Virus record (IMG/VR): IMGVR_UViG_3300020141_000899
Coordinates: 1-31,647 of that record
Strand: one strand, 5' to 3'
Source: a virus
Length of the DNA stretch: 31,647 nt
Of the stretch, positions 1-12,722 are shown in pieces. The position numbers were made by a program, and so were the translations under genes. The notes beneath the pieces are model-generated. The model was not told the origin of the DNA. It saw only the letters and a program-made list of their open reading frames with translations, and searched no databases. The first letter of the stretch is position 1; the number at the start of each line of letters is the position of its first letter.

Positions 1-28
1 TTAGGATCGTCTAAAGTGTCTCTATAGT
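1..28 (+). promoter_or_regulatory. Promoter cassette copy 1 (left edge cut)
   Basis: First of 13 near-identical cassettes. It has TTAGGA at 1-6, a 16-bp spacer and a TATAGT -10-like box at 23-28. Unlike other copies, extra bases including a T-run separate the -10 box from the ATGAGCACC start at 45. The AT-rich left shoulder (ATTAAAG) seen in other copies lies outside the window. Confidence 0.7.
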
Positions 29-44
29 ACAGAATGATTTTTTT

Positions 45-1457
45 ATGAGCACCATTAAATTAATGAAACTTCGTCCCAATCAAATTGAAATTCTTGATGC
101 ACTGAAAAAAAATAATAAAGGTTTAATTACTAGTCCTACTGGTAGTGGAAAAACTTTATCTTTTATTACTGATTGTCGCAGGTTTCTTGAGGAAGGAAAA
201 GTAGTTGTTGTGGTCGCCCCTCAACTAATGCTTTCGGAGCAACTTTTTGGGGAATTTGACGAACATCTTTCTGATGTTGATTTTTACTATCGTCAAATTT
301 CTTCAGATTCTAAGACTTTCCAACGTAATCGTAAGAATCTAAAGTTTTGTATTACCCCCCCAAAGTCTCCCACAACTGTTGTATCAGAGATTCAAAATAC
401 TTATCGAATTGCACAGAAACTTAAGAAACCTCTGATTCTTTTTGTAACCTATGATAGTCTTGATCGTATAGTATCTTCTTTGATTCCGATTGATGTTGTA
501 TATTATGATGAGGCACATAATGCAACTTCTTCAAATCACTTTAACTCAGTAAAGTTTATGAGTAATCATGCTGCTCATAATTATTTTTTCACCGCAACTC
601 CACGATATAGTCAATCTAAAAGTGTAGATGGTCCTGGAATGGATAATATCAATGTTTATGGAGGAAATATTGTCAATATTCCCTTTAAACAACTTGTTGA
701 TCAAGGTATTATTGTTTCTCCCTTCATTCACCTTGTAAAAAGTGATGCAGACACTGATAAAATGGACGAAACTTCTGTAAATCTTAAAACAATTAAATCA
801 ATTGTCAACTATTATGAAACAGAGCATTCTGACACTTCTGCACATAAAATTCTCTTCTGTGCTCAAGGTACTAAATCAATTCAAGATTTGATGAATGCTG
901 GTTTGCAAGAGTGGGCAACTGAAATGGGATATAAAGTATTGTCAATTGATTCTGTAAATAAAGGATATATTGATGGTAAACGCAATATCAACAAATCCGA
1001 ATTTATAAAAACTCTCAATCAACTTGGAAATGATCCAAATCAAAAAATGATTGTGTTACATTATGCTATGCTTGGCGAAGGGATTGATATTAAAGGTTTT
1101 ACTGGAGTTGTATTTCTTCGCAATACTCTTTCACAAATCTTTGCAACTCAATCTATTGGTCGAGTAATTCGTTCTGCTCCTGGTAAGAAATATGGTATTG
1201 TGACAATAGTTGAACACGAAAACAATTCTAATGAAAGTCAAGAACTGATTAGACAAATTGTTGAGCAACTTTTTAAACAAGGTGTTCCTGTATCTGAAAT
1301 TTTTACTGAAGTTCAAGGTCGTGGTAAAGAAGATGAAATTGTTGAAAGTTTAGATGAAGATCTTAAAAAACTCATTCGTAACTATAATATTCAATATGAA
1401 CACAATAACATTCTTGCAGAACTTTTGGGAATGAATGTTGAAGATTTTGCTTTTTGA
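45..1457 (+). CDS. DEAD/DEAH-type superfamily 2 helicase (restriction-type)
   Basis: Probable ATP-dependent DNA translocase/helicase of superfamily 2, 470 aa. Visible motifs: LRPNQ near residue 9 (Q-like motif), Walker A PTGSGKT at 31-37, DEAH box YYDEAHN at 153-159, motif III FFTATP at 181-186, and motif VI QSIGRVIR at 369-376. No nuclease or methylase domain is fused. Next come a methyltransferase half, an Mrr-like nuclease and a small SAM-binding protein in tight order, so it is probably the motor subunit of a split restriction system. It is collinear with the helicase at 4279-5478 (shared NKG before Walker A, PGM..NVYG, VVFLRN), indicating duplication. T4 UvsW is an alternative, but the restriction-gene context favours the motor role. 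The start could also be Met7; the upstream cassette supports transcription from about position 35. Confidence 0.85.
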   Translation: MSTIKLMKLRPNQIEILDALKKNNKGLITSPTGSGKTLSFITDCRRFLEEGKVVVVVAPQLMLSEQLFGEFDEHLSDVDFYYRQISSDSKTFQRNRKNLKFCITPPKSPTTVVSEIQNTYRIAQKLKKPLILFVTYDSLDRIVSSLIPIDVVYYDEAHNATSSNHFNSVKFMSNHAAHNYFFTATPRYSQSKSVDGPGMDNINVYGGNIVNIPFKQLVDQGIIVSPFIHLVKSDADTDKMDETSVNLKTIKSIVNYYETEHSDTSAHKILFCAQGTKSIQDLMNAGLQEWATEMGYKVLSIDSVNKGYIDGKRNINKSEFIKTLNQLGNDPNQKMIVLHYAMLGEGIDIKGFTGVVFLRNTLSQIFATQSIGRVIRSAPGKKYGIVTIVEHENNSNESQELIRQIVEQLFKQGVPVSEIFTEVQGRGKEDEIVESLDEDLKKLIRNYNIQYEHNNILAELLGMNVEDFAF

Positions 1458-1466
1458 ATCACTGCC

Positions 1467-1502
1467 TATTAAAGTTAGGATCGTCCAAAGTGGACCTATA
1501 GT
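1467..1502 (+). promoter_or_regulatory. Promoter cassette copy 2
   Basis: Cassette with TTAGGA at 1475-1480, 16-bp spacer and TATAGT at 1497-1502. The ATG of the next reading frame directly abuts the -10 box. This copy has GGACC in place of the usual GTCCC just before the -10 box. Confidence 0.75.
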
Positions 1503-2765
1503 ATGAGTACAATTATGATGCAACAACTTTCTGTTTATGAATTGGCACGGATAAAGTTTCGTGATGAGTTTAAAAAAGGGATTACACCTGTTGATGGTCG
1601 GCAACCTATTCCTGACGAACTTGCTAAAACAATGGTTCAGGAGTTGATTGACCTTGAAGTGCCTAAAGATGCACTGATTGGTATTTTTGATGCCTTTTTG
1701 ATTCTATCTACTCACCTTAAGGAGGTGGGATATTCAAATCTAGTTCTTCTTGAAAATACTCATAATAACTTGTCTAATGCACAAGGAACGTATTATAGTA
1801 ATGTTCAGAATATATGTGAAAAGTCGGGCATTAAATACTATGTGCCCCCAATGAACAACTATGGGAGATGTAATATGGAATTTGATGTTATTATCGGCAA
1901 TCCTCCTTATCAGAGTGACAAAGTGAGTGGAAATAAAAGAGGGTCTGGATATGAAGCACTCTGGTATGAGTTCTCAAAAAAAGCATTTGATCTTGCAAAA
2001 AAAGGTGCCATCATATCTCTAATTACTCCAGAATCTGCATTTACTGGTAGTGAAAAGTTCACATCTCTATTGAGTGGTAAAAAATCAAAGGTTGATCTTG
2101 ACTATGTTGAATTTGGACTTAAAGACAAGTTTAGGGGAATTTCTATTAACATTTGTCGTTGGATATCTAAAAATAACTATACGCCAGGGTATCTTAGCAA
2201 TATTGGTGATCGTCATTTTGATGCAAAAACTGTTTTTAAAATCTACAATAATTCCATCGTTCAACAAATCGTAGATACTCTTGTCTCTTATAGAGGTGAC
2301 AAGATTAATTTTTCAGTATCTGGACAATACAACTATGCAGCAGTGTCTGATAAATTGAAAAAAACTGGTCATGATCCAGCACGAGCAAAAGATATTTCCT
2401 TGGTGAAAACTGACACTCATAAGTATAAACTCATTGATAATGGTGTTGTAAAATATACTTCAATTATTCATGGTAATGATTATGGAACTCCTCGCGTATT
2501 TCTCTCTCGACTAAAGAATCCATACATTGTACAGGTAGATGATTATGCTATGAATACAGAAAGCACTCTTGTCATGCACTTCAGCACAATAGAAGATGCA
2601 AATAAAATCTATCATATTCTTGATGATCAGTTAACTCGCAAGGTGATTTCTCTTTTTTGCTCCAACGGTCGTATTTCTGGTGCAGATATATCTCAGTTAC
2701 CAACTGTTCACCTTTCCGAAGTTCTATCACCAGAACAACTTGCTTACATTCAATCTCAACTCTGA
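1503..2765 (+). CDS. N6-adenine DNA methyltransferase, NPPY half with degraded SAM site plus probable target-recognition region
   Basis: Protein of 420 aa resembling Eco57I/Type I-like adenine methyltransferases. The catalytic motif IV, NPPY, is at residues 133-136 within FDVIIGNPPYQ. Upstream, PDELAKTMV near 37-45 resembles motif X. The following stretch, about 55-90, occupies the place of motif I and the acidic motif II, but lacks the expected FxGxG glycines, so SAM binding looks impaired. The region after about residue 220 could be the target-recognition domain; that is inferred from position only. The gene at 3328-3735 has the reverse content, with intact motifs X and I and no NPPY. The two may form one heterodimeric enzyme, or this may be a decaying gene. 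Methionines 5 and 6 (1515 and 1518) are alternative starts, because the first ATG abuts the promoter -10 box. Confidence 0.75.
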   Translation: MSTIMMQQLSVYELARIKFRDEFKKGITPVDGRQPIPDELAKTMVQELIDLEVPKDALIGIFDAFLILSTHLKEVGYSNLVLLENTHNNLSNAQGTYYSNVQNICEKSGIKYYVPPMNNYGRCNMEFDVIIGNPPYQSDKVSGNKRGSGYEALWYEFSKKAFDLAKKGAIISLITPESAFTGSEKFTSLLSGKKSKVDLDYVEFGLKDKFRGISINICRWISKNNYTPGYLSNIGDRHFDAKTVFKIYNNSIVQQIVDTLVSYRGDKINFSVSGQYNYAAVSDKLKKTGHDPARAKDISLVKTDTHKYKLIDNGVVKYTSIIHGNDYGTPRVFLSRLKNPYIVQVDDYAMNTESTLVMHFSTIEDANKIYHILDDQLTRKVISLFCSNGRISGADISQLPTVHLSEVLSPEQLAYIQSQL

Positions 2766-2767
2766 TT

Positions 2768-3331
2768 ATGCAACTTCAACATCCAGCATCCTTTGATATA
2801 ACAGAATTTACTCAAATCATAGAGGTTGAAACTCTTGCTGGATTTGTTAAAAATGTTGTGAAGTATGGAAAAATGCAAGATCCTGATATTTATGACCCCC
2901 TTGATTATATGGGGGATTGTTGGGAAGTATTTGCAGAGTTCTTCTTTAAATTTTTTAATGGTGATCATACTCTCACATATACTGCCAATTACGAACCAAA
3001 TATAGGGTATGATTGTGGAATTGATGGTCGTGGTATCTCAACTCTTGATGGTAATTTATGTGTACATCAGCATAAGTTCAAGGCAAATCCTACCGCCTAC
3101 CTAACCAATGATGACAATATTAGTAATATTGCAGCAGATGCAACTCTAAATGAAGGGTTGGTTCCAAATGGTAAAAATATTATCATTTTTACTTCCTGTA
3201 AAGGAGTACATCCCAATCACGCAATGTCATCGGCACATTGTATCTCTGAAAAAGAAATTTCTAGACGAGTGAATAAAAATGTAGTATTCTGGAATGATTT
3301 TAAGAGTGCAATAACTTATAAAAACCTATGA
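2768..3331 (+). CDS. Mrr-like PD-(D/E)XK nuclease
   Basis: Protein of 187 aa, starting at the ATG two bases after the previous stop. It shows a restriction-nuclease-like core: a helix with E53 and E57 (WEVFAEFFF), then GYDCGIDGRG with D82 and D86, then VHQHKFK with Q101 and K103. This E...D...QxK order is the Mrr-type variant of the PD-(D/E)XK fold. The later part has IIIFTS near 137 (a hydrophobic strand) and a lysine-rich C-terminus. It is sandwiched between a methyltransferase half and a SAM-binding protein, and overlaps the latter by an ATGA junction, so translation is probably coupled. It would be the cleavage subunit of the split system. The function is assigned from motif order alone; no close homologue was identified. 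Confidence 0.6.
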   Translation: MQLQHPASFDITEFTQIIEVETLAGFVKNVVKYGKMQDPDIYDPLDYMGDCWEVFAEFFFKFFNGDHTLTYTANYEPNIGYDCGIDGRGISTLDGNLCVHQHKFKANPTAYLTNDDNISNIAADATLNEGLVPNGKNIIIFTSCKGVHPNHAMSSAHCISEKEISRRVNKNVVFWNDFKSAITYKNL

Positions 3332-3735
3332 ATAAGAACAAACATAATATAACAGTAGGTTCAGAAATTGAAAGAACAGACGAAAGAATTGATGATACTG
3401 GGGAAGTATTTACACCAATAGAACTGTGTATAGAAATGGTGAATGAAATTCCTCTGTATATTATTCAAAATCCACAATCAAAGTTTCTTGATAATAGTGC
3501 AGGAAATGGTAATTTTATGATTGCATTACTCAATAAACTTACAGAGTATCATAGCAGAGAACATGTATTGAATCATATGCTTTATGCAGTAGAACTTATG
3601 GAAGACAATCATAAAGAAATGTGTGAACGTCTTGGTGTTGATATAACTCACTCACATTATGTTTGTCGCGATGCACTCACTTATGATTATAGTTTTGGTG
3701 AACCTATGGGAGTTGAGGAATTTTTTAGTGATTAA
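3328..3735 (+). CDS. SAM-binding methyltransferase fragment (motifs X, I-III only)
   Basis: A 135-aa protein overlapping the preceding gene by four bases (ATGA). TGEVFTP at residues 24-30 matches motif X of gamma-class adenine methyltransferases. LDNSAGNGNF at 54-63 matches the SAM-binding motif I. YAVELMEDN near 87-95 fits motif II, and CRDALTYDYS fits motif III. It ends before any NPPY motif, so alone it could bind SAM but not methylate. The NPPY half lies two genes upstream (1503-2765), so the order is permuted. It is either a complementing subunit or the front of a truncated methyltransferase. Its stop codon lies inside the next promoter cassette, which suggests the cassette junction set its 3' end. 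Confidence 0.65.
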   Translation: MNKNKHNITVGSEIERTDERIDDTGEVFTPIELCIEMVNEIPLYIIQNPQSKFLDNSAGNGNFMIALLNKLTEYHSREHVLNHMLYAVELMEDNHKEMCERLGVDITHSHYVCRDALTYDYSFGEPMGVEEFFSD

Positions 3736-3765
3736 AGTTAGGATCGTCTAAAGTGTCTCTATGGT
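3731..3765 (+). promoter_or_regulatory. Promoter cassette copy 3
   Basis: Cassette containing the stop codon of the upstream gene in its ATTAAAG shoulder. TTAGGA is at 3738-3743 and the -10-like box is TATGGT (3760-3765), the only copy with this change. It is followed directly by ATGAGCACC. Confidence 0.7.
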
Positions 3766-4011
3766 ATGAGCACCAAACAAATGTCCTTCACTATCACTGA
3801 CCAACCTGTAATCATTAACGGCACTGAACATCAAGTCACTGCTGTGAATGGTATGGACCGAGTTCTAATCAACAACAAACTGCATGATCTTGGAGAGCAA
3901 ATCCTGAAACTGCGTATGCAGCAAGATGAACTTGCAATGATGCGTAATGTTCTTGATCATCACATCAAATCCAAAGAAAAAGATTTGTTTGAGATGTTTT
4001 ATGCTTCCTGA
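3766..4011 (+). CDS. Small hypothetical protein, probable coiled coil
   Basis: An 81-aa protein not recognised. The N-terminal half (ITDQPVIINGTEHQVTAVNGMDRVLI) looks like short beta strands. From about residue 35 onward it is helical and heptad-like, rich in Leu, Gln, Glu and Lys. It is the first gene after cassette 3 and is followed 39 bp later by another small gene. The reading frame opens at the ATG abutting the -10 box, but Met6 (3781) is the more likely translation start if TATGGT is the -10. Phage-accessory function unknown. Confidence 0.6.
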   Translation: MSTKQMSFTITDQPVIINGTEHQVTAVNGMDRVLINNKLHDLGEQILKLRMQQDELAMMRNVLDHHIKSKEKDLFEMFYAS

Positions 4012-4050
4012 TATACTCTCTGTAACCCCTCTATAATCCCCTACAACATC

Positions 4051-4248
4051 ATGGAAACTGTGAACGTGTCTGTAAGTACTCTGGAAACTCTTATTGAGGG
4101 TCTAGAGAGTGCAATCAATGTGTGCTATAATGTAGACTACCAATCAGATGATCACGAAAAGTCTGCACCTTATGCAACAGGATATAGTCGTGCTGCGATG
4201 CGAATGATTAGTGATCAACTCAAAACTCTGAAAGTACAGGGGTATTAA
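4051..4248 (+). CDS. Small hypothetical protein
   Basis: A 65-aa acidic protein, METVNVSV..., not recognised. It looks mostly helical (STLETLIEGLESAINV and YSRAAMRMISDQLKTL) with a short central DYQSDDHEK segment. There is no strong Shine-Dalgarno; the leader ATCCCCTACAACATC is A/C-rich, as in many other early genes here. The TAA stop lies within the ATTAAAG shoulder of cassette copy 4. It probably shares a transcript with 3766-4011. Confidence 0.6.
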   Translation: METVNVSVSTLETLIEGLESAINVCYNVDYQSDDHEKSAPYATGYSRAAMRMISDQLKTLKVQGY

Positions 4249-4278
4249 AGTTAGGATCGTCCAAATTGTCCTTATAGT
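4243..4278 (+). promoter_or_regulatory. Promoter cassette copy 4
   Basis: TTAGGA at 4251-4256, 16-bp spacer and TATAGT at 4273-4278. This copy has ATTGTCC where others have AGTGTCC. The upstream stop codon is embedded in the left shoulder, and the ATG of the second helicase abuts the -10 box. Confidence 0.75.
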
Positions 4279-5478
4279 ATGAGCACAACCTTGATGAATA
4301 CGCAAATCAAACTTCGTCCTCACCAAATTCGTGGTGTTGATGCTATGTCCAAGCACAACAAAGGTCAACTTATAAAACCAACTGGAGCAGGAAAAACTCT
4401 TACTATGATTGCTGATGCACTCAAAGAGTTTGCTAAAGAAACTCCACAGACCATTGTTGTTGTTGCTCCTCGCATTCTCTTAGCAACTCAGTTGTCTTCT
4501 GAGTTTCTGGAGTTTATCACTAATGCTGCTGTATTTCACTGCCATTCTGGTGATGTTCACTGGGAAAGTTCTACTCGTCCTGCTGTGATTAGTCAGTGGG
4601 TTGAGAACAATCAGTCACGTCACAAGTTGATTGTAACCACCTACAACTCTCTCCAACGTCTTGTTGATGCAGAGATTGATGTGGATACGATATATTTCGA
4701 CGAAGCACATAATTCCGTCAAACGTAACTTCTTTCCTGCAACGGAGCACTTCTCTGCAAATGCAAATCGTGCGTACTTCTTCACTGCAACTCGCAAGACT
4801 TCTGTTGCTGTGGGTAAACCAGGAATGAACGATGTTGATGTCTATGGTAACATCATCTGCCGCGTTTCTGCACCAGAACTTGTTGATGGTGGGTATATTG
4901 TTGCTCCCAAGATTATAGCAAAGAAGTTTGAAGTTCTGGACGGCAAACAAATCACTGCCGAATGTGATAGTAGCAATCTGATGGAAACTCTTGACGACAT
5001 TGACTGCAAGAAGATCCTGGTCTGTGTGAAGTCTGCGAAGCAACTTATCAACCTTGTATCACAATCTGATTGCATCACTGAACTACAGTCTCGCGGATAC
5101 TCTTACCTTTACATCACCTCCAAAACAGGAGCAGTGATTGACGGTAAGAAAGTGGATCGTGAGGTATTCTTTGATACTCTTAATGCTTGGGGACGTGATA
5201 GCAGCAAGAAGTTTGTTTGTCTTCACAGGTCTATTTTGAGTGAGGGAATTAACGTAAGCGAATTAGAGGCAGTTGTCTTTCTTCGCAATATGGATGTGAT
5301 TGAACTCACTCAAACTATCGGTCGCGTACTTCGCAAAGGAGGCAAAGATAAGGTCTGGGGTCTATGTGTGGTCCCAGTATATTCCAAGGTGGGTATAGCA
5401 ACCGAACGGGCACTTCAGGGTGTTGTTGATGCAGTATTTGAGAGGGGAGAGTTGCTGGATTCTGTTGTGAGACGGTGA
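4279..5478 (+). CDS. DEAD/DEAH-type superfamily 2 helicase, paralogue of 45-1457
   Basis: Superfamily 2 helicase of 399 aa. Motifs: LRPHQ at 12-16, Walker A PTGAGKT at 34-40, DEAH at 141-144 (YFDEAH), FFTATR at 167-172 (arginine replaces the usual final proline of TATP), and QTIGRVLR at 345-352. It is collinear with the helicase at 45-1457 but shorter at the C-terminus. Its codon use is less AT-biased than the first copy, suggesting a different history. No methyltransferase or nuclease follows directly, so it may act in DNA repair, recombination or annealing, like UvsW-type phage helicases, rather than restriction. Met6 at 4294 is an alternative start, since the first ATG touches the promoter -10 box. 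Confidence 0.85.
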   Translation: MSTTLMNTQIKLRPHQIRGVDAMSKHNKGQLIKPTGAGKTLTMIADALKEFAKETPQTIVVVAPRILLATQLSSEFLEFITNAAVFHCHSGDVHWESSTRPAVISQWVENNQSRHKLIVTTYNSLQRLVDAEIDVDTIYFDEAHNSVKRNFFPATEHFSANANRAYFFTATRKTSVAVGKPGMNDVDVYGNIICRVSAPELVDGGYIVAPKIIAKKFEVLDGKQITAECDSSNLMETLDDIDCKKILVCVKSAKQLINLVSQSDCITELQSRGYSYLYITSKTGAVIDGKKVDREVFFDTLNAWGRDSSKKFVCLHRSILSEGINVSELEAVVFLRNMDVIELTQTIGRVLRKGGKDKVWGLCVVPVYSKVGIATERALQGVVDAVFERGELLDSVVRR

Positions 5479-5495
5479 GTCTCACAGTAGACTCA
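5476..5495 (+). terminator. Hairpin at end of helicase gene
   Basis: A perfect 7-bp inverted repeat (TGAGTCT, loop CACAGT, AGACTCA) begins at the helicase stop codon. There is no immediate T-run, so it may be an mRNA 3'-end stabiliser or a weak terminator rather than a classic intrinsic terminator. Confidence 0.4.
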
Positions 5496-5600
5496 AGTCC
5501 ACCACTCAAGCAAAAACGTGATTTTTTGAAGATTTCACTGCAAACGACCTATCACCCATCCACAACCACCAGATCACTGATTTTTGAGAAAGTATAACAA

Positions 5601-6254
5601 GTGATTTCCATTCAAGATCAAAAATTTATTAAATCTGTTGTTAAAAAATATATTCAAGAATGCTTGATTGAATGTGGATTTGATCCGACTATCAAAGAAC
5701 CTGGACATACTTATGGTGAAAACATAGAAGAAAAATTGGTGAATAAACTTGTTTCAAAATATCCTGATAAGTTTTCACCTCCAATAAAAACAAAGGGAAA
5801 AGGAAAACAAACAAGAAAAATGGAAGATTTAATTTGGATTCCAACTAATGATTTCATTAACATTAAACTTGGATATGAGAAGGGAGGGGGACAACCTAAT
5901 ATGGTTTCTTTTACTCGTCTTTTGGAAAAATATCATAGTGGAGAAATAGACTCTTATTATATTTTTATTATCGACGTTTCTGGTAAAACAAAACAAAGTC
6001 TCAATACAAAATTATATTTGTTTAATCTTTATGATTATTTAAATTATGTGAATTATAACTATGGAACTGGTCAAGTTATGCTCAAAGAAAAACAATTTTT
6101 TAGTGAATATGATTCAAATAAATATGTTGACAACACAAAAAAGAATATTATGCTACAATTAAAAGAAATTGAAAATAATGCTTTCACTACTCACCAAAAA
6201 CTTAAAGAAAATCAACATCAAAAAAGACAGGAGATATTTAATGATTACTGCTAA
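5601..6254 (+). CDS. Putative Type II restriction endonuclease (PD-(D/E)XK)
   Basis: A 217-aa protein starting with GTG; the next in-frame methionine is residue 74, so GTG is needed to include the conserved-looking N-terminus. The core resembles a restriction endonuclease: an N-terminal helix with E40, E43 and E44, then E75-D76 (KMEDLIW), then FINIKLG with K89, followed by GGGQPNM at 95-101. ED...(I)N(I)K is a PD-(D/E)XK pattern. The C-terminus (about 180-215) is lysine- and glutamine-rich and probably helical. It overlaps the downstream methyltransferase gene by 14 bp, a typical restriction-modification arrangement, which supports the assignment. Base composition is more AT-rich than the preceding helicase, suggesting acquisition as a unit. 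Recognition site unknown. Confidence 0.6.
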   Translation: MISIQDQKFIKSVVKKYIQECLIECGFDPTIKEPGHTYGENIEEKLVNKLVSKYPDKFSPPIKTKGKGKQTRKMEDLIWIPTNDFINIKLGYEKGGGQPNMVSFTRLLEKYHSGEIDSYYIFIIDVSGKTKQSLNTKLYLFNLYDYLNYVNYNYGTGQVMLKEKQFFSEYDSNKYVDNTKKNIMLQLKEIENNAFTTHQKLKENQHQKRQEIFNDYC

Positions 6255-7221
6255 AATTTATAATGATGATTGTGTAAAATTTTCAAATCAATATGAAGAT
6301 CAATTTGATTCAATCGTAACCGATCCTCCATACGGAATTGAATATCTTGGGAATGGGTGGGACTCCTATCAAGATTGCATATCATTTCAAAAACCTACCT
6401 GGGAATCAATATCAAAGTGTCTAAAACCTGGTGGATATTTGGTAATTTTTGGTGCCCCTAAAACATTTCATCGTTTGACCTGTGCGGTAGAAGATTCTGG
6501 ACTTAAAATTAGAGATGTATTGATGTGGTTATATGGTCAAGGTATGCCCAAAAGTCAAAATATTGGAAAGAAAAATGCAAATTGGGAAGGATGGGGAACA
6601 GGTTTAAAACCCTGTTATGAACCCATTTTATTGGCACAGAAACCTATTGAAGAAAAAACTATAGTTAAAAATTGTGAAAAGTATGGTGTGGGTGCAATTA
6701 ATATTGAAGACACTAGATTGGATTCTGGTAGATTTCCTGGAAATGTTTTGCACGATGGTAGTGATGAGGTTGAGAATGAGTTTTGTAAATTTGGAGAAAG
6801 AGGTAATGGTTGGTCAAGAAATTATGGAGTAGAAGATTATCAAGGTAGACAATATGGGGGTGGTGTTTTTGGTGGAGGTGGATATATTGGTGAAACTACA
6901 TATTGTGATTCTGGAACGGCAAGTAGATTCTTTTATTCGACTAAAAGTTCAGTAAAGGAAAGAACACATAACCGAACAATAGAAAATAATCATCCCACAG
7001 TCAAAAATTTAGATTTGATGAAATACTTGATTAAACTTGTAACTCCTCAAAATGGAATTGTCTATGATCCCTTTGCTGGAAGTGGAACTACTTTAATTGC
7101 TGCTAAAGAACTTGGATTTAATTCAGTAGGAGTTGAATATTCTCCCGAATACTATAAAATTATTCAAGATAGAATTAATGCGATTACCTCTTCTTTAGAA
7201 AACTTTTATTGCGACACTTGA
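6241..7221 (+). CDS. Site-specific DNA methyltransferase (DPPY, N6-adenine or N4-cytosine)
   Basis: A 326-aa amino-methyltransferase. Catalytic motif IV, TDPPYGIEYLG, has DPPY at residues 28-31, and the SAM-binding motif I, DPFAGSGTT, is near the C-terminus at 276-284. This circular order (IV before I) marks the beta-type arrangement. The middle, about 90-240, including the glycine-rich GRQYGGGVFGGGGYIG, may hold target recognition. The ATG at 6241 is chosen because AGGAGA (6230-6235) precedes it at good spacing; the frame also extends further upstream. It overlaps the endonuclease gene, so translation is probably coupled and it would protect phage DNA from that enzyme. It could also act alone, to evade host restriction. 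Confidence 0.85.
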   Translation: MITAKIYNDDCVKFSNQYEDQFDSIVTDPPYGIEYLGNGWDSYQDCISFQKPTWESISKCLKPGGYLVIFGAPKTFHRLTCAVEDSGLKIRDVLMWLYGQGMPKSQNIGKKNANWEGWGTGLKPCYEPILLAQKPIEEKTIVKNCEKYGVGAINIEDTRLDSGRFPGNVLHDGSDEVENEFCKFGERGNGWSRNYGVEDYQGRQYGGGVFGGGGYIGETTYCDSGTASRFFYSTKSSVKERTHNRTIENNHPTVKNLDLMKYLIKLVTPQNGIVYDPFAGSGTTLIAAKELGFNSVGVEYSPEYYKIIQDRINAITSSLENFYCDT

Positions 7222-7226
7222 ATAAA

Positions 7227-7412
7227 ATGAAAGATGGATTTATTGTGGGTAAAGATGGAGAGTATGCAGCAATTCCTTATGGAAACTCTGGGTACATCAT
7301 CCTACACAACGGACAGCAACTTGAGAAACTTTGTAGGACTGAAAGTTCTGCAAAGAAGTATATTGCCGACCACAAGAAGAGTCTAACTCAAGGGCAACTT
7401 CCTTTGAATTAA
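7227..7412 (+). CDS. Small hypothetical protein
   Basis: A 61-aa protein, MKDGFIVGKDGEYAAIPYG..., not recognised. Several short beta strands (FIVGKDGEYAAIPY, GYIILHNGQQLEKL) are followed by a lysine-rich helix (SSAKKYIADHKK). The ATG at 7227 is preferred over an in-frame TTG at 7209, which would overlap the methyltransferase. The stop codon is inside cassette copy 5. It lies just after the restriction-modification pair, probably on the same transcript, but nothing in the sequence ties it to that function. Confidence 0.55.
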   Translation: MKDGFIVGKDGEYAAIPYGNSGYIILHNGQQLEKLCRTESSAKKYIADHKKSLTQGQLPLN

Positions 7413-7442
7413 AGTTAGGATCGTCCAAAGTGTCCCTATAGT
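7408..7442 (+). promoter_or_regulatory. Promoter cassette copy 5
   Basis: TTAGGA at 7415-7420, 16-bp spacer and TATAGT at 7437-7442. The upstream stop codon lies in the left shoulder. This is the one ATG-type copy whose downstream gene has no second methionine near the start. Confidence 0.75.
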
Positions 7443-8312
7443 ATGAGCATTCAAAACAAGCACCAAGAACATTTTGAGGATCTAATCCTAACAGGTGATC
7501 TATCAGTACTAGATTTCTTTGATGGTGACTATGAAGTTTCATTGAAAATTGATGGTTCTCCTGCTATTGTGTGGGGAACCAATCCTGTGAGTGGTAACTT
7601 CTTCGTGGGCACCAAAAGTGTCTTCAATAAAGTTAAACTGAAGATCAATGAATCTCACGAGGACATTGATGCAAACCACATTGGGAATGTAGCACAAATC
7701 CTACACTGCTGCTTGGATAATCTGCCTCGCACAGAGAACATCTATCAGGGTGATTTCATTGGGTTTGGTGGACTTAATGTCTATACCCCTAACACGATTA
7801 CCTATCAGTTCCCTGAAGTTGTAACTCAAAGTATCATCATCGCACCACACACAAAGTGGAGCACTGATGGTGAACTTCGTGATGCGTTTGTATCTGGTTC
7901 TGCACCATTCTTTAATGATACTGAGCACGTCAAGTTCGTGCAACCGGTTGTAGACATGATGCCTGTAAATTCCCTTGATGTGAATGTTGATGATGTAAAG
8001 TTCCTGACTGATAAGGAAGCAGCATCAGCAAAAATAAAAATCAATGCTCTTATTCGTGAGGGAAAGGAGTTGACTTGGTGGGCACTTGGAGACATTTTTG
8101 GTTGTATGAACCTTGCACATTTGTATCTAACTCTCACAGAAATTAAAGAGCACCTAATTGATGCAATGATCGTCAGTGATGCACCAAAATCATATCTTAA
8201 TGGTGAGCAAATCGTAGGTGAGGGTTTTGTCCTCAAGAATAGTAGCATCATTATGAAGTTGGTGAATCGTGAAGTTTTCAGCAAAGCAAATTTCAACCTG
8301 CAAAGATCCTGA
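7443..8312 (+). CDS. KxDG nucleotidyltransferase-like protein (DNA/RNA ligase superfamily)
   Basis: A 289-aa protein with signatures of the covalent nucleotidyltransferase superfamily (ligases and capping enzymes). Motif I, K35-I-D37-G38, holds the lysine that would be adenylylated. IYQGDFIGFGG near 100-110 fits motif III, EGFVLK at 260-265 fits motif IV, and IIMKLV at 269-274 fits motif V. FFVGTKSVFNK near 53-63 resembles motif Ia. No extra oligonucleotide-binding domain is evident, so it may be an RNA-ligase-like repair or modification enzyme. T4-like phages encode several divergent proteins of this superfamily whose substrates are not established. The start is the ATG abutting the cassette -10 box; no other ATG lies before the catalytic lysine. 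Confidence 0.65.
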   Translation: MSIQNKHQEHFEDLILTGDLSVLDFFDGDYEVSLKIDGSPAIVWGTNPVSGNFFVGTKSVFNKVKLKINESHEDIDANHIGNVAQILHCCLDNLPRTENIYQGDFIGFGGLNVYTPNTITYQFPEVVTQSIIIAPHTKWSTDGELRDAFVSGSAPFFNDTEHVKFVQPVVDMMPVNSLDVNVDDVKFLTDKEAASAKIKINALIREGKELTWWALGDIFGCMNLAHLYLTLTEIKEHLIDAMIVSDAPKSYLNGEQIVGEGFVLKNSSIIMKLVNREVFSKANFNLQRS

Positions 8313-8348
8313 TATTAAAGTTAGGATCGTCCAAAGTGTCCCTATAGT
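8313..8348 (+). promoter_or_regulatory. Promoter cassette copy 6
   Basis: TTAGGA at 8321-8326, 16-bp spacer and TATAGT at 8343-8348, beginning directly after the upstream stop codon. It is the presumed promoter for the five-gene run 8349-9833. Confidence 0.75.
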
Positions 8349-8780
8349 ATGAGCACAACCACTATGCAACTCCAAGCACAACAAACCATTGCAGATATCG
8401 TTCTCAAGAATACTCATCTGCTGATTGAAGCACTCAAAGATAACTTTCGTGAGTATTCTATTCGTGGTCATCAACGTTCTGTTGATCGTGGTGAAAGTGT
8501 AGAGCATCATCAGCAGAGGATTGATGAACTCAAGAATGGTATTCTGCCGATTGATTATGTGATTGAGAGTGGTAAAAAGTACCACAAAGTTGTTATGGTT
8601 GATGCTGGAAGTTCTAGGTCTGTTCATGCTTTTGTGGACAAGAATACTGGTGAAGTGTATAAGTCTGCATCGTGGAAATCGCCTGCTAAAGGTGTTCGTT
8701 ATGACCTGCGATTGATTGCTGATCGTGAGTATCTGCTGAAAAATGCAGATTGGTCGGGTGGATATTTGTACGCAAAATGA
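8349..8780 (+). CDS. Hypothetical phage protein
   Basis: A 143-aa protein of unknown function. The N-terminal half is helical (QAQQTIADIVLKNTHLLIEALKD). The C-terminal half reads like a small beta domain: KYHKVVMVDAGSSRSVHAFVD, then NTGEVYKSASWKSPAKGVRYDLR. Met6 (8364) is the likely translation start if the upstream TATAGT is a -10 box. It heads a run of five genes with ATGA-type or zero-gap junctions, so they are probably co-transcribed and translationally coupled. The KNTGEVYKSASW segment looks like those of small cyanophage proteins, but I cannot name a family. Confidence 0.65.
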   Translation: MSTTTMQLQAQQTIADIVLKNTHLLIEALKDNFREYSIRGHQRSVDRGESVEHHQQRIDELKNGILPIDYVIESGKKYHKVVMVDAGSSRSVHAFVDKNTGEVYKSASWKSPAKGVRYDLRLIADREYLLKNADWSGGYLYAK

Positions 8781-8923
8781 GTATAATGAACTGGGAAGAA
8801 ATGAAACAACAAATGCTCATTGAAGCAGTTGAAGATTACATCTACAGTATGAAACAACTTAACTGCAATCAAGCAGCAATTGATGCCTACACTAAACTTT
8901 TGGAGGAACTTGAAACAAAATGA
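8777..8923 (+). CDS. Tiny helical protein (48 aa)
   Basis: A 48-aa reading frame, MSIMNWEEMKQQMLIEAVEDYIY..., that starts in an ATGA overlap with the preceding gene and ends in an ATGA overlap with the next. This is the clearest evidence that it is translated. The sequence is entirely helical in character and acidic, with no recognisable domain. Confidence 0.6.
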   Translation: MSIMNWEEMKQQMLIEAVEDYIYSMKQLNCNQAAIDAYTKLLEELETK

Positions 8924-9159
8924 CTTACACTCTCCACGATCCAATTAAAGAACTCTCTGTTACTAAATCTCTCCAACTTCTGCGTGATGGTTTCAAGAGT
9001 GATCTTGCAACTTATGTCTATGCTGATGAGCGAATAACTGAACTTTTGATGGAACTTGTGAGTGATTTTGTAGAGATTAACATTCCTGTGGTTGATGAAT
9101 ACAATCGCACAGAACTTGCTATGATGTTGATGGAAACTCTGGACATTATTGCACGATGA
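8920..9159 (+). CDS. Small hypothetical protein
   Basis: A 79-aa acidic, mainly helical protein (ITELLMELVSDFVEINIPVVDE, ELAMMLMETLDIIAR). It overlaps both neighbours by four bases (ATGA), so translational coupling within the 8349-9833 operon is likely. Not recognised; the pattern is typical of small cyanophage early proteins. Confidence 0.65.
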   Translation: MTYTLHDPIKELSVTKSLQLLRDGFKSDLATYVYADERITELLMELVSDFVEINIPVVDEYNRTELAMMLMETLDIIAR

Positions 9160-9419
9160 CTTACTCTAACCTCTCCAAAATCAAAACCAAGTTTAGAACT
9201 AAAGGTAACGTCACTGGAAACTTTGGTGTTCCAAAATCTAAAGCAGGTTCACCACTAAATGATATTGGTGTAACGAACGCAAAAGTAGTCAAATGTGCAA
9301 CACAAGACGAATATCTCAATCGCCTCTATTATGCGTTTGATAATAGCACAGATGAAAAACTCCGTCATTTCATCTACACCGAAATCCGACAAATCCTTAT
9401 CCAAACAGGTAAATGGTAA
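9156..9419 (+). CDS. Small basic hypothetical protein
   Basis: An 87-aa protein. The N-terminal 35 residues are basic and glycine/serine-rich and look disordered (SKIKTKFRTKGNVTGNFG). The C-terminal half is helical (QDEYLNRLYYAFDN, TDEKLRHFIYTEIRQILIQ). It overlaps the upstream gene by ATGA and abuts the downstream gene with no gap (TAA then ATG). Function unknown; the basic N-terminus could contact nucleic acid, but that is a guess. Confidence 0.65.
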   Translation: MTYSNLSKIKTKFRTKGNVTGNFGVPKSKAGSPLNDIGVTNAKVVKCATQDEYLNRLYYAFDNSTDEKLRHFIYTEIRQILIQTGKW

Positions 9420-9833
9420 ATGAAACATCTACTCACTCTTTCACTCCTACTTCCATTTGTATTTGTTGCACCAACTCAAGCACAGCAAGTGAATGTTTAT
9501 GGTGAAAGTTATTGTTATACTAACATAGAGCAATACGTTCCTGGGTATTATGATGCTTATGGAAACTATGTGGGTGGTTATGTAAATAATACTCGCAATC
9601 GTGTTCCTTGTAACAATAATGTAGTGGTAAATCCACAACCTTACTATAACAATGGTGGAGGTTATTATGGTCGTCGCACTAACCCTAACTGTAATCCATC
9701 TCGAACTATATTAGGAGCAGTACTTGGTGGTGCGATTGGTAGATCTATGACTAGCACTCGCAATAATCGCAATAATCGTGGATGGGCAACTGCACTTGGT
9801 GCAAGTATAGGTGGGCTCACATTTTCTTGTTAA
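9420..9833 (+). CDS. Secreted or periplasmic Gly/Asn/Tyr-rich protein with glycine-zipper segment
   Basis: A 137-aa protein with a clear signal peptide: MKHLL, a hydrophobic core to about residue 17, and a TQA-Q cleavage site after residue 21. The mature part has tyrosine-, asparagine- and glycine-rich repeats (YDAYGNYVGGYVNN, YYNNGGGYYG). It ends with a glycine-zipper-like segment, TILGAVLGGAIGRSM and WATALGASIGG, that could insert into or associate with a membrane. Cysteines at the end and middle could form disulfides in the periplasm. An exported protein in an otherwise cytoplasmic-looking operon suggests an envelope role, such as lysis control or exclusion, but no function is proven. It directly abuts the gene before it. 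Confidence 0.65.
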   Translation: MKHLLTLSLLLPFVFVAPTQAQQVNVYGESYCYTNIEQYVPGYYDAYGNYVGGYVNNTRNRVPCNNNVVVNPQPYYNNGGGYYGRRTNPNCNPSRTILGAVLGGAIGRSMTSTRNNRNNRGWATALGASIGGLTFSC

Positions 9834-9866
9834 TAAAGTTAGGATCGTCCAAAGTGTCCTTATAGT
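9832..9866 (+). promoter_or_regulatory. Promoter cassette copy 7 (GTGTAG type)
   Basis: TTAGGA at 9839-9844 and TATAGT at 9861-9866. It overlaps the stop codon of the secreted-protein gene. First copy of the second subtype, where GTGTAGAGACC replaces ATGAGCACC after the -10 box, so no reading frame opens inside it. A C/A-rich leader then leads to the ATG at 9887. Confidence 0.75.
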
Positions 9867-9886
9867 GTAGAGACCAATCAAACCAA

Positions 9887-10054
9887 ATGACCAGATATGA
9901 TGTCCGTTGCGGACAAGCACCTTGGGAGAACACTACTACCGACCTTGATAGTGCAATCGACCTTGCCTATTCATTGTCCGAAGATTATCAGTGTGACGTG
10001 AACATTCACTATAACCACACTGGTACAATCTACACCACTGTTTCTAACTACTGA
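9887..10054 (+). CDS. Tiny hypothetical protein (55 aa)
   Basis: MTRYDVRCGQAPWENTTTDL... is a 55-aa protein, the first ATG after cassette 7 and 20 nt downstream of its -10 box. It resembles a compact beta-alpha-beta fold (RYDVRCGQ, helix DLDSAIDLAYSLSE, then CDVNIHYNHTGTIYTTV). There is no Shine-Dalgarno; the leader is AATCAAACCAA. The next gene starts two bases after the stop. Confidence 0.6.
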   Translation: MTRYDVRCGQAPWENTTTDLDSAIDLAYSLSEDYQCDVNIHYNHTGTIYTTVSNY

Positions 10055-10056
10055 TT

Positions 10057-10257
10057 ATGGTACTTCCAACTCACAATGCAATTTCATTCACTTCTAAAGG
10101 GGAACATCAAGCAGCACTATATGGTGCTTGTCTGTTGATTGTGAACACTTACAATCAAACTGATATGTTAGACTTCTATGAGCACAATGGTGTAACTCCT
10201 TATACCTTTATGACTTTTGCCCGTAACATTCTCAATCAAATTGCAGAAGGTAACTAA
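10057..10257 (+). CDS. Small hypothetical protein
   Basis: A 66-aa protein, MVLPTHNAISFTSKGEHQAA..., with a central hydrophobic helix (ALYGACLLIVNTYNQ) and a second helix near the C-terminus. It follows the preceding stop after two bases and is followed one base later by the next gene, so it is part of a three-gene transcript from cassette 7. Not recognised. Confidence 0.6.
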   Translation: MVLPTHNAISFTSKGEHQAALYGACLLIVNTYNQTDMLDFYEHNGVTPYTFMTFARNILNQIAEGN

Positions 10258-10258
10258 A

Positions 10259-10402
10259 ATGAAGTATATTGTTGATTTATACGTTGGTGGTAAAGTCTTC
10301 AAAGAAGAAGTACAAGCAAACAACCCACAAGATGCACGTTATACTGCACAAAATCGAAATCCTACTGCAAAAGTAATCGGAGTGAATGTAAGTTTCAAGT
10401 AA
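10259..10402 (+). CDS. Tiny hypothetical protein (47 aa)
   Basis: MKYIVDLYVGGKVFKEEVQA..., 47 aa. The pattern is strand, helix (NPQDARYTAQNR), strand (AKVIGVNVSFK), like a small ferredoxin-like or DUF-type fold found in many phage micro-proteins. The frame opens further upstream from a TTG, but the ATG at 10259 is the first consistent with the preceding stop. Its stop codon touches cassette 8. Confidence 0.55.
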   Translation: MKYIVDLYVGGKVFKEEVQANNPQDARYTAQNRNPTAKVIGVNVSFK

Positions 10403-10436
10403 TTAAAGTTAGGATCGTCCAAAGTGTCCTTATAGT
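10402..10436 (+). promoter_or_regulatory. Promoter cassette copy 8 (GTGTAG type)
   Basis: TATAGT at 10431-10436 with TTAGGA 16 bp upstream. The flanks are almost identical to copy 7, including the AGAGACCAATCAAACCAA leader, so these two may be a recent duplicate pair. Confidence 0.75.
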
Positions 10437-10462
10437 GTAGAGACCAATCAAACCAACTCTAA

Positions 10463-10669
10463 ATGACTACTTTTCTCACCAAAGCACAACGACAAATACT
10501 CATCGACTGGTATATTGACTGCCTGATTGATACCGAGTCGGAGTTTGTTGATGGAAGTGAGGAAGCAGAACGTCAACAACTTGCATCAATGAACAACTCT
10601 TACTTCTATGAGTACGTTCAGGAGATGATGCCTTCCTGTATGAAAGATCTTGCAAAAATGAAGGTCTGA
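10463..10669 (+). CDS. Small acidic hypothetical protein
   Basis: A 68-aa acidic helical protein (KAQRQILIDWYIDCLIDTESEF, then EEAERQQLASMNNSYFYEYVQEMM). Met1 lies 26 nt after the cassette -10 box, with no Shine-Dalgarno. The N-terminal LTKAQRQILIDWY reads like a helical adaptor but cannot be named. First gene of the 10463-11175 group. Confidence 0.6.
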   Translation: MTTFLTKAQRQILIDWYIDCLIDTESEFVDGSEEAERQQLASMNNSYFYEYVQEMMPSCMKDLAKMKV

Positions 10670-10710
10670 TACGCACACTTTCTTCTCCTAATTACACCAA
10701 ACAAACCAAG

Positions 10711-10935
10711 ATGATCATCAAAGGCAACAACCACGCTCCCTTCAAAGTTAACAAAGGCACCAAGGGTTATAACGTTTGGGTATATAAAACTAGCAGTGAA
10801 ACTCACCCTGATGGTGTCATCCGTCACCACTACAAAATGTTAACAACCCACGGCAAGTATCACTCACGGGAGGATGCAACTGCTGTAGCGTGGCATTATA
10901 TCGAAAACCACTCCTACGATCACTGTGCCACCTGA
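10711..10935 (+). CDS. Small protein, WNVWVY-type family member A
   Basis: A 74-aa protein, MIIKGNNHAPFKVNKGTKGYNVWVYKTSS.... It has the same layout as the 63-aa protein at 14352-14543: PF.V, then G.(Y/W)NVWVY, a charged hairpin, and a C-terminal helix ending in an aromatic/Asn motif (A..W.YI.N). The two appear paralogous. It is probably a small beta-hairpin-helix protein of unknown role. The leader ACCAAACAAACCAAG replaces a Shine-Dalgarno. Confidence 0.6.
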   Translation: MIIKGNNHAPFKVNKGTKGYNVWVYKTSSETHPDGVIRHHYKMLTTHGKYHSREDATAVAWHYIENHSYDHCAT

Positions 10936-10992
10936 ACCTATAAACTAAAGCACACCAAACAAACCAACTCTAATCCTAATCCTAATACAAAA

Positions 10993-11175
10993 ATGACTCA
11001 TTACAACCCTTATGTGAATACCCTAATCGAGATGGGATACAATGAACAAGACTGCCGCAATGTTGCTGCGGTAGGTGAAACAAACGTAACCTATCCCCGT
11101 ATCATTCATGGACGCATATTTGAGACTAAAGAAGAGTATGATGATGCAGTTGCTGACTTTATCAATGGAATGTAA
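10993..11175 (+). CDS. Small hypothetical protein
   Basis: A 60-aa protein (YNPYVNTLIEMGYNEQDCRNVAAV, ETKEEYDDAVADFINGM), with helices flanking a short strand. The leader contains three tandem copies of a CTAAT-like hexamer (TAATCC) and an A-rich AATACAAAA before the ATG. Not recognised. It shares the transcript of cassette 8. Confidence 0.6.
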   Translation: MTHYNPYVNTLIEMGYNEQDCRNVAAVGETNVTYPRIIHGRIFETKEEYDDAVADFINGM

Positions 11176-11184
11176 GTTTCAAGT

Positions 11185-11220
11185 GATTAAAGTTAGGATC
11201 GTCCAAAGTGTCCCTATAGT
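11185..11220 (+). promoter_or_regulatory. Promoter cassette copy 9 (ATG type)
   Basis: TTAGGA at 11193-11198 and TATAGT at 11215-11220, followed by ATGAGCAAC. The upstream gene ends ten bases before it. Confidence 0.75.
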
Positions 11221-11460
11221 ATGAGCAACACCCAAATGGATCAAGTCTTCTCCTACTCTACCAACTGGAAAGAAGGTAAAGTGAATCAAATGTGGATTCA
11301 ACAAATCACTCCTGAGTATCAAGAATGTGATCACAAATACGTTGCTATTGCTTACAATCCCGAAAAGAATGTGAGTATGGTAATGTCTAACCCACGCAGT
11401 CACTATGACACTCTTAACTGGGTTCGTAACTTCTGCGGTTCATTCTCTATCCTAAACTGA
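11221..11460 (+). CDS. Small hypothetical protein
   Basis: A 79-aa protein, likely started at Met6 (11236), as the first ATG abuts the -10 box. It looks like a small mixed alpha/beta protein with tryptophans (STNWKEGKVNQMWIQQITPEYQE, TLNWVRNFCGSF). The sequence HKYVAIAYNPEKNVSMVMSN suggests two antiparallel strands. Not recognised. First of three genes up to 11803. Confidence 0.6.
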   Translation: MSNTQMDQVFSYSTNWKEGKVNQMWIQQITPEYQECDHKYVAIAYNPEKNVSMVMSNPRSHYDTLNWVRNFCGSFSILN

Positions 11461-11471
11461 GTAAACAGCAA

Positions 11472-11636
11472 ATGACTACACAAAGGTTCACTAATCTCTT
11501 TGAAGCAGTAGATTTTCTCACTACAAACTTTCCTCTCTCACGACAACAAGCAACTCATTTTGTATGGGATCATTCATTCACAATCGGCACTGATAAAGGT
11601 GTTTGGATTGATACTCGTTTCGTAAAAGTCTCTTAA
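11472..11636 (+). CDS. Tiny hypothetical protein (54 aa)
   Basis: MTTQRFTNLFEAVDFLTTNF..., 54 aa. It starts 12 bases after the previous stop, preceded by AACAGCAA. The N-terminal helix (FTNLFEAVDFLTTN) is followed by a strand-rich end (FTIGTDKGVWIDTRFVKVS). Unknown function. Confidence 0.6.
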   Translation: MTTQRFTNLFEAVDFLTTNFPLSRQQATHFVWDHSFTIGTDKGVWIDTRFVKVS

Positions 11637-11641
11637 ACAAA

Positions 11642-11803
11642 ATGATCACAACTTCTTTCTACAAAGGCAACTCTTACTCAAAGTCTGATGCTTATTATGA
11701 GGATCACGAACATGATGATAATCTAACAGCAGAAGATTATGAGCGCAAAGCATATCAACGTGATGGATGGGAAGATGTAAAGTATGACCGACAATATTGG
11801 TGA
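11642..11803 (+). CDS. Tiny Tyr/Asp-rich protein (53 aa)
   Basis: MITTSFYKGNSYSKSDAYYE..., 53 aa. It is strongly acidic and aromatic in the middle (DAYYEDHEHDDNLTAEDYE) and basic near the end (RKAYQRDGWEDVKYDRQYW). It is probably partly disordered. The leader AAACAAA and the five-base gap to the upstream gene fit the local pattern. Confidence 0.55.
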   Translation: MITTSFYKGNSYSKSDAYYEDHEHDDNLTAEDYERKAYQRDGWEDVKYDRQYW

Positions 11804-11839
11804 TATTAAAGTTAGGATCGTCCAAAGTGTCTCTATAGT
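11804..11839 (+). promoter_or_regulatory. Promoter cassette copy 10
   Basis: TTAGGA at 11812-11817 and TATAGT at 11834-11839. The downstream GTGTAAGCACC is intermediate between the two subtypes. It starts directly after the upstream stop codon. Confidence 0.75.
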
Positions 11840-11866
11840 GTAAGCACCAATCCAAACCAAACCAAA

Positions 11867-12181
11867 ATGAGAAAAATCGAAATCCAAATGAATGATGCAA
11901 TCTCCAATCAAAAGAATTGGAGCAATGCTAATACTCAAGTTCTTACAGAAGGTAACATCTCCCGTGTGTTTCTTCATGGTAATCAAATCGCAACTATTGG
12001 AGAAAACTTTATTCAACTGTTTGATGGTGGTTATCAATCAGCAACCACTAAGTCCCGTCTAAATGCTATTCTGAAAGAGCACGGACTTCCTGGTGAAAGT
12101 GTATTTCAAAAGAACTTTAACTGGTTTGTGAATCAAGTTGGAGGTGCTATTCCTTTCTTCTCAGGTATGCGTCTTAACTGA
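11867..12181 (+). CDS. Hypothetical phage protein
   Basis: A 104-aa protein, MRKIEIQMNDAISNQKNWSN.... The N-terminus is helical. A beta-rich middle (NTQVLTEGNISRVFLHGNQIATIGENFIQLFDGG) is followed by a helix with TTKSRLNAILKEHG and a C-terminal FNWFVNQVGG. Small early phage proteins often have this build, but no family could be assigned. The start is 27 nt after the -10 box with a CCAAACCAAACCAAA leader. It heads a four-gene run to 12628. Confidence 0.6.
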   Translation: MRKIEIQMNDAISNQKNWSNANTQVLTEGNISRVFLHGNQIATIGENFIQLFDGGYQSATTKSRLNAILKEHGLPGESVFQKNFNWFVNQVGGAIPFFSGMRLN

Positions 12182-12183
12182 GA

Positions 12184-12336
12184 ATGAGAACTAAAAAACT
12201 AACACTCAAATCACCCTCAAAGATGAAACTTATTGCACTTATCTTTGTCATTAGTTTTATAGTCTTCCCATCAGTAAGGTATACAACTGCTGAAGTATTA
12301 AGGTCTACTGCATCACTCATCTCACCACAATACTAA
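12184..12336 (+). CDS. Small membrane protein (50 aa)
   Basis: MRTKKLTLKSPSKMKLIALI... has a basic N-terminus, a hydrophobic segment at about residues 15-30 (KLIALIFVISFIVFPSV), and a polar tail (YTTAEVLRSTASLIS). It is either a single-pass inner-membrane protein or a signal-anchor. Translation could also begin at Met14 (12223). There is a two-base gap after the preceding stop. Function unknown. Confidence 0.55.
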   Translation: MRTKKLTLKSPSKMKLIALIFVISFIVFPSVRYTTAEVLRSTASLISPQY

Positions 12337-12343
12337 ACACAAA

Positions 12344-12481
12344 ATGACACTTAACGAAACTGATCTTCAAAACTTACTTACACTGATTGATTTTCATGAT
12401 GATTATGATGAGGTGAAAGAAGTGTGGGGTTTTGATATAGGACCTCTTCGTGAAAAGATTGTTACTGAACTTACTCACTAA
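12344..12481 (+). CDS. Tiny acidic protein (45 aa)
   Basis: MTLNETDLQNLLTLIDFHDD..., 45 aa, acidic and helical (ETDLQNLLTLIDFHDDYDEVKEVW). It starts after the A-rich leader AACACAAA, seven bases after the previous stop. Not recognised. Confidence 0.55.
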   Translation: MTLNETDLQNLLTLIDFHDDYDEVKEVWGFDIGPLREKIVTELTH

Positions 12482-12490
12482 TCAAACAAA

Positions 12491-12628
12491 ATGATACGTT
12501 ACGAAGTCCGATTCCAAACTCCTTATAACAATCAGGAATGGAGATCACAATTCTTTAATACACTTCAAGAAGCAGAAAGTATGGTAAGGTTTTATCTCTC
12601 TTGTGGATCAAAGTCTTATATGGTATAA
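12491..12628 (+). CDS. Tiny hypothetical protein (45 aa)
   Basis: MIRYEVRFQTPYNNQEWRSQ..., 45 aa, with a strand, then a helix (NTLQEAESMVRFYLSCG). It resembles other micro-proteins here with an R-Y-x-V-R start (compare MTRYDVRCG at 9887), possibly a divergent relative. It is the last gene before a roughly 500-bp stretch with no confident gene. Confidence 0.55.
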   Translation: MIRYEVRFQTPYNNQEWRSQFFNTLQEAESMVRFYLSCGSKSYMV

Positions 12629-12645
12629 TAATCAAGAAGAGGAAG

Positions 12646-12693
12646 ATGTTGGCCTCTGCTATACAACAAAGTTACATCGTAGAGTATAGATAA
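12646..12693 (+). CDS. Possible 15-aa leader peptide
   Basis: MLASAIQQSYIVEYR, with a purine-rich GAAGAGGAAG just upstream. Its codons 3-5 carry the CCTCTGCT segment that can pair with the left arm of the terminator at 12723. It would fit a leader peptide of an attenuator, but its short length makes chance occurrence plausible. Confidence 0.2.
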   Translation: MLASAIQQSYIVEYR

Positions 12694-12722
12694 TTGACTT
12701 AAGGTTGGTATAGGTGATTATA

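Follow-up and report, generated by a model that had tools for sequence, protein, structure and literature searches.

Methyltransferase functions on two proteins in a putative, exchangeable restriction cassette of T4-like cyanophages

Do four neighbouring genes near the end of an environmental virus record make up a restriction system in which even the methyltransferase is parted between proteins? The stretch analysed here (31,647 nt, an IMG/VR record of an ocean virus; hereafter, the window) is, judged by its genes, a fragment of a T4-like cyanophage, with baseplate wedge genes at 18155–20485 and with close relatives in Kyanoviridae. An earlier note had proposed a split restriction system on four open reading frames between positions 45 and 3735, and all four could be located. 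They lie on the plus strand in the order helicase (470 aa, 45–1457), methyltransferase and target-recognition protein (420 aa, 1503–2765), Mrr-like putative nuclease (187 aa, 2768–3331) and SAM-binding protein (135 aa, 3328–3735). The 420-aa gene stops at 2765, the nuclease gene starts at 2768, and the nuclease and SAM genes overlap by ATGA at 3328–3331; this spacing suggests that the three genes form one unit. A 29-bp intergenic repeat precedes the 420-aa gene (1475–1503, plus strand) and, with further copies at 1–29 and 3738–3766, frames two units, the helicase and the methyltransferase–nuclease–SAM set. A 29–33-bp intergenic element, TTAGGATCGTCCAAAGTGTCYCTATAGTA, occurs in 13 copies in positions 1–14330 of the window, with 0 expected, and sits immediately upstream of many window genes, often running up to the start codon; none of the related loci compared contained its core.

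Our sequence comparisons place methyltransferase functions on two proteins: of the gamma-type N6-adenine methyltransferase motifs, X and I are on the 135-aa protein and IV is on the 420-aa protein. The 135-aa protein (phrog_4376, E = 2e-70; motifs X, I, II and III) carries TGEVFTP at residues 24–30 and DNSAGNGNF at 55–63, and its chain ends ahead of motif IV, which it lacks; its N6_Mtase match (E = 0.0055) is below the Pfam cut-off. The 420-aa protein (phrog_3689) has motif IV, NPPY, at residues 133–136 (1899–1910, plus strand), invariant in the homologue alignment, and lacks SAM motif I; its match to the Eco57I methylase family (Pfam, E = 1.5e-13) begins only at about residue 111. The idea that each half lacks what the other has proved measurable, as the two proteins give adjoining matches to one PADLOC profile, PDLC03273, the 135-aa protein at positions 43–128 (E = 1.8e-5) and the 420-aa protein at 129–413 (E = 1.7e-9), and abut in the same way on the mad2, phrog_9133 and phrog_3820 profiles. 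We infer that the two together form one N6-adenine methyltransferase.

The 420-aa protein had been described as an NPPY half with a degraded motif I. NPPY is present and motif I is absent, but the AlphaFold model (15 sequences; pLDDT 87, pTM 0.82) matches M.TaqI with Z 19.1 over 325 residues (rmsd 4.7), recognition domain included, so that in the model the protein is a whole M.TaqI-like fold with a degenerate SAM-binding part and not a half fold. The degenerate part, residues 34–115 (1602–1847, plus strand), is defined by strand order in the model and by a profile alignment with the 135-aa family that has a modest score (E = 0.003) and a gap at the Gly-rich loop. Within it, D63 is invariant among close homologues, and a wider alignment keeps both D63 and E84 almost without exception. 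The strand 1–3 positions of the model are already occupied by this degenerate copy, and on partners that keep it the 135-aa protein may displace it or bind elsewhere. A sequence search of the PDB with the 420-aa profile gave chance matches only, and the 135-aa family matched CamA best among PDB entries (E = 0.006). M.TaqI and CamA are single chains with an intact motif I, unlike the 420-aa protein.

Homologues of the 135-aa protein were gathered from IMG/VR and isolate phages and reduced to a non-redundant set of 81 (≤95% identical). Motif I and E[VF]FTP are kept in 81/81 and motif IV occurs in 0/81. Ten of the 81 loci are too close to a contig end, which leaves 71 informative for counting partners; a motif-IV partner is nearby in every one (64 found by script, the other 7 on inspection), and at no fewer than 48 the partner overlaps the SAM gene. 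The earlier note had named beforehand, as evidence against its proposal, homologues of the 135-aa protein that always occur without a partner, and the NPPY-type partner at 71/71 informative loci contradicts this. A true motif I was not found in the partner proteins, in which two pattern matches fall outside the Gly loop. Motif IV itself reads NYPY, NSPF, NSPY or NLPF, not NPPY or NPPF, in partners at loci L006, L014, L016, L019, L048 and L080. That the 135-aa gene might be a stray fragment is ruled out by its conservation, its dN/dS and the constant pairing. A bacterial source was also considered and rejected: the sole match in genome_contigs, a Rhodobacteraceae MAG contig (L072, 712–1149) with a SAM subunit 58% identical to that of the window, is possibly a phage contig binned with a bacterium.

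Two kinds of locus bear on whether the proteins interact. In Aeromonas phages (Aeh1 and relatives), a single chain carries both parts, ordered NPPY, TRD, X–I–III, and this natural fusion of NPPY–TRD and SAM part argues for an interaction of the two separate proteins. The motif order of the fusion is that of beta-class enzymes. Its AlphaFold model is weak (pLDDT 70, pTM 0.62), too weak to show docking. At the other extreme, bare NPPY and SAM pairs accompanied by neither nuclease nor helicase are found in P-SSM2 (proteins of 193 and 132 aa), L099, L104 and others, and the bare NPPY partners, for example that of P-SSM2, have no SAM part of any sort. Because the partner in these minimal pairs begins directly at the NPPY strand, the SAM protein alone can provide strands 1–3.

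Two-polypeptide methyltransferases are known among cytosine-5 enzymes, namely M.AquI and M.EcoHK31I (PMC3404938), and the window, as far as its sequence tells, likewise has one methyltransferase on two polypeptides. The C5 enzymes are parted near the C-terminal motifs, whereas the putative adenine enzyme of the window is parted between its SAM-binding and catalytic parts; its family also differs from them in having a constant SAM subunit and varying partners. Circularly permuted M.EcoKI-like methylases have been noted in jumbo phages, and in the Aeromonas fusion the catalytic part similarly stands ahead of the SAM part; split enzymes, exchangeable partners and restriction cassettes are not described in the portions of that source available to us (PMC7824862). 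Our search of the open-access literature found no paper on a split adenine methyltransferase with a constant SAM subunit, and none on split methyltransferases in cyanophages.

Type ISP enzymes combine in one polypeptide, in this order, an Mrr-like nuclease (typically PD-QxK), a helicase motor, a coupler, a gamma methyltransferase and a TRD (PMC3874165, PMC4666363). The 45–1457 protein is an SF2/ResIII helicase (Pfam ResIII, E = 6e-18; Helicase_C) with PDB matches to LlaGI (the best, E = 1.4e-11) and LlaBIII. A plasmid search with it returned 66 records, of which most of those listed are annotated as type ISP, at 93% cover and E values down to 4e-16. A second ResIII helicase gene, UvsW-like, lies at 4279–5478, 3′ of the SAM gene in the window and in most related loci, and is apparently a core gene alongside which cassettes are placed. 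PDB matches alone do not separate the two helicases; used as a control in the plasmid search, the UvsW-like gene found no Type ISP enzymes. The possibility that the 45–1457 protein is itself the phage UvsW was rejected, given the separate UvsW-like gene and the plasmid Type ISP matches of the former only, and its motor appears by sequence to be of the ISP type.

Assignment of the 187-aa protein (phrog_7683) as an Mrr-like nuclease is weaker than that of the helicase and depends on a D..QxK pattern, with E53, E57, D82, D86, Q101 and K103 invariant in 14 homologues. Pfam, NCBIfam and PADLOC returned nothing significant for the 187-aa protein; sub-threshold matches to Mrr_cat_2 (0.05) and Mrr_cat (0.12) were each given by one of the 14 homologues, and the best match of the nuclease profile to a Type ISP profile fell on GID..IQCK and was not significant (P = 0.25).

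Like the Type ISP enzymes LlaGI and LlaBIII, the window has an SF2 helicase-like motor, homologous to theirs over 93% of its length, and a TRD, together with a candidate Mrr-like D..QxK nuclease and a putative gamma-type N6-adenine methyltransferase. Unlike the single Type ISP chain, it has four proteins, with methyltransferase functions on two of them; its recognition domain is TaqI/CamA-like and the system is phage-borne. For the ISP coupler and Type_ISP_C specificity domains, no window protein gave a match with E as high as 1, whereas in reference ISP proteins they were found at E = 1e-48 and 1e-107 or better. We therefore do not class the window system as a Type ISP member, as it has several chains and no detectable coupler or Type_ISP_C domain. 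Of the proposal that Type ISP parts are spread over four proteins, the ISP-like helicase and the multi-gene set are supported.

The layout had been thought to be without described precedent, and it is not confined to this window: all four genes occur together in 13 non-redundant cyanophage loci, isolate Bellamy included. All four are under purifying selection (dN/dS mostly 0.06–0.4): the helicase, nuclease and SAM genes have values of 0.06–0.32, and the 420-aa gene reaches 0.53 where its block has been exchanged. Purifying selection on every gene, together with this recurrence, indicates that the four-gene block is not due to chance. A census of architectures at 66 informative loci assigned 13 to the window's type (Mrr-like, helicase, NPPY and SAM) and 17 to a type with GIY-YIG/T5orf172-like and ResIII domains, fused or separate, the GIY-YIG label being based on one Pfam match just above the cut-off (T5orf172 in L012) and on similarity to L012. 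A nuclease-like domain is fused to NPPY, without a helicase, at 11 loci, and another ResIII type is fused to NPPY at 7. The other 18/66 are minimal or unrecognised, P-SSM2-like pairs included, so that up to 18 of the 66 are without a recognised nuclease or helicase. Reordered gene sets of the window's type were found in ACG-2014f and in S-CAM7 isolate SB42.

How the partners vary is visible from a comparison of two near-identical contigs, L010 and L011. Their DNA is 95–100% identical across the SAM and nuclease genes, the bulk of the helicase gene and the 420-aa gene as far as NPPY; identity declines to 79% at the helicase 3′ end and to 47–63% over the remainder of the 420-aa gene, NPPY codons included. 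This exchangeable block, corresponding to 1911–2765 (plus strand) in the window, holds the remaining catalytic domain and the target-recognition domain. L011 has the window's version of it (86% identity) and L010 the version present in L066 (91%); at L012, a block resembling the window's is part of the GIY-YIG-fused protein. The alignments show that everything from NPPY to the gene end has been replaced in one piece, with the helicase, nuclease and SAM subunit kept. In Type I systems, specificity is altered by exchanging recognition parts (HsdS), and motor and nuclease stay. Unlike HsdS, the block exchanged here also takes in some of the catalytic domain, and it is the SAM binder that stays constant.

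Genome comparison of isolates shows that whole cassettes, too, are swapped or dropped next to a SAM gene that does not change. The SAM protein of Synechococcus phage ACG-2014f is 96–100% identical among the five isolates compared, and the cassette beside its gene is of the Mrr type in C90, a GIY-YIG/helicase and NPPY pair in C16, another small gene in US44 and nothing in C7, with flanks 98–99% identical between C90 and C7. Cassettes also differ among S-CAM7 isolates. ACG-2014f isolates without an adjacent partner were considered as a counterexample to the pairing and set aside, since all have a distant NPPY half, gp186 (301 aa), at a distance of about 100 kb; among ACG-2014f records, the SAM gene and gp186 occur in one and the same set of 26. 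At L018, L034 and L131, one SAM gene stands with two NPPY proteins. From these loci and the distant gp186 we infer that one SAM subunit may be common to several partners, even where 100 kb separates them. Whether one constant SAM subunit serves interchangeable catalytic and specificity subunits in trans, letting the phage change, multiply or discard specificities, we regard as an even call. The small gene of US44 (L151, 2419–2955) encodes a 178-aa PD-(D/E)xK nuclease-like protein that replaces the cassette, with no NPPY partner adjoining. In ACG-2014f, both the SAM gene and the end of the cassette are followed by a similar hairpin, AATAACTGGCACA-GGGGGG...CCCCCC (L002, 4290–4385 and 7835–7930; L146, 5299–5400), which is a possible recombination point for cassette exchange.

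The reading that we favour, and consider probable, is a phage restriction-modification cassette that acts as a dismantled Type ISP enzyme would, its adenine methyltransferase made of two subunits, of which the SAM subunit is the constant one. The 135-aa subunit would supply SAM and the 420-aa subunit would pick the target site and transfer the methyl group; the Mrr-like nuclease and ISP-like helicase would rely on the same target recognition, translocating from unmethylated sites before DNA is cleaved. Phage DNA would thereby be marked, and unmarked DNA, of a rival phage or the host chromosome, destroyed. The multi-gene restriction system with a split methyltransferase proposed earlier is retained in its sharing of functions and its ISP-like helicase, with the correction that the 420-aa protein cannot strictly be called a half. 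A different account, to which we give a minor share of belief, has the cassette only modify: phage DNA would be methylated against host restriction or as a regulatory mark, like DarB-like or orphan methylases, and helicase and nuclease would serve phage recombination or another role. The minimal pairs, which imply that modification alone is also selected, favour it, as does the frequent carriage by phages of methylases for evasion (PMC7824862). It accounts poorly for an Mrr-like gene kept with helicase, NPPY and SAM genes at 13 non-redundant loci, for nuclease-like domains fused to the NPPY chain in other cassettes and for a helicase that is ISP-like and not UvsW-like. Marine picocyanobacteria, moreover, have few or no restriction systems (PMC8262939), which leaves the evasion of host restriction with little force as a motive; destroying the DNA of the host or of a rival would fit better.

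The shared active site may also be questioned. The 420-aa protein might bind SAM by itself through a changed loop, leaving the 135-aa protein as a separate SAM-sensing or assembly factor, as the complete TaqI-like fold of the 420-aa protein and the conservation of its D63 and E84 would allow; yet the Gly loop is lost in the degenerate copy, some partners are without any SAM part, the Aeromonas fusion has both parts in one chain and the pairing is kept at all 71 informative loci, and we hold this account to be unlikely. We see still less reason to think of a selfish cassette maintained through exchange or homing and not through a restriction function, which strikes us as distinctly improbable. 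A cassette that is present, absent or exchanged at one fixed position, with similar junction hairpins in ACG-2014f, is what such an element might leave behind, but within the 420-aa gene it is precisely the specificity block that is exchanged, and the nuclease and SAM genes stay, a pattern expected for restriction specificity and counting against the selfish account, and all genes are under purifying selection.

If a restriction-modification cassette with a two-part methyltransferase is the correct reading, widespread T4-like cyanophages carry restriction systems whose adenine methyltransferase is modular and in two parts, and the combination of a constant cofactor subunit and plug-in catalytic and specificity subunits would be a new route for evolving restriction specificity. 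It would also give a function to phrog_4376 and phrog_7683 (both of unknown function) and to phrog_3689. Restriction by ocean phages of the host chromosome or of each other would become directly testable, and isolates that differ in the cassette already exist (ACG-2014f, S-CAM7).

Elsewhere in the window, the region 5601–7221 holds a family-less 217-aa open reading frame that overlaps a gene for a beta-type N6/N4 methyltransferase (6241–7221). A NIKLGYEKGGGQPNMVS stretch in this frame resembles a Type II restriction endonuclease, and the two genes may be a second, ordinary restriction-modification pair. An HNH homing-type endonuclease gene lies at 15682–16158 (phrog_59, E = 4e-27). Far from the cyanophages, the Prevotella phage Lak-A2, a megaphage that uses code 15, in which TAG encodes Gln, carries two such parts in L148 (4945–10001, minus strand): a SAM part containing EFFTP and GNGNF and, about 2 kb off, a helicase-like chain that has NPPY and a degenerate SAM part, apparently the same parting of the methyltransferase in a very distant phage.
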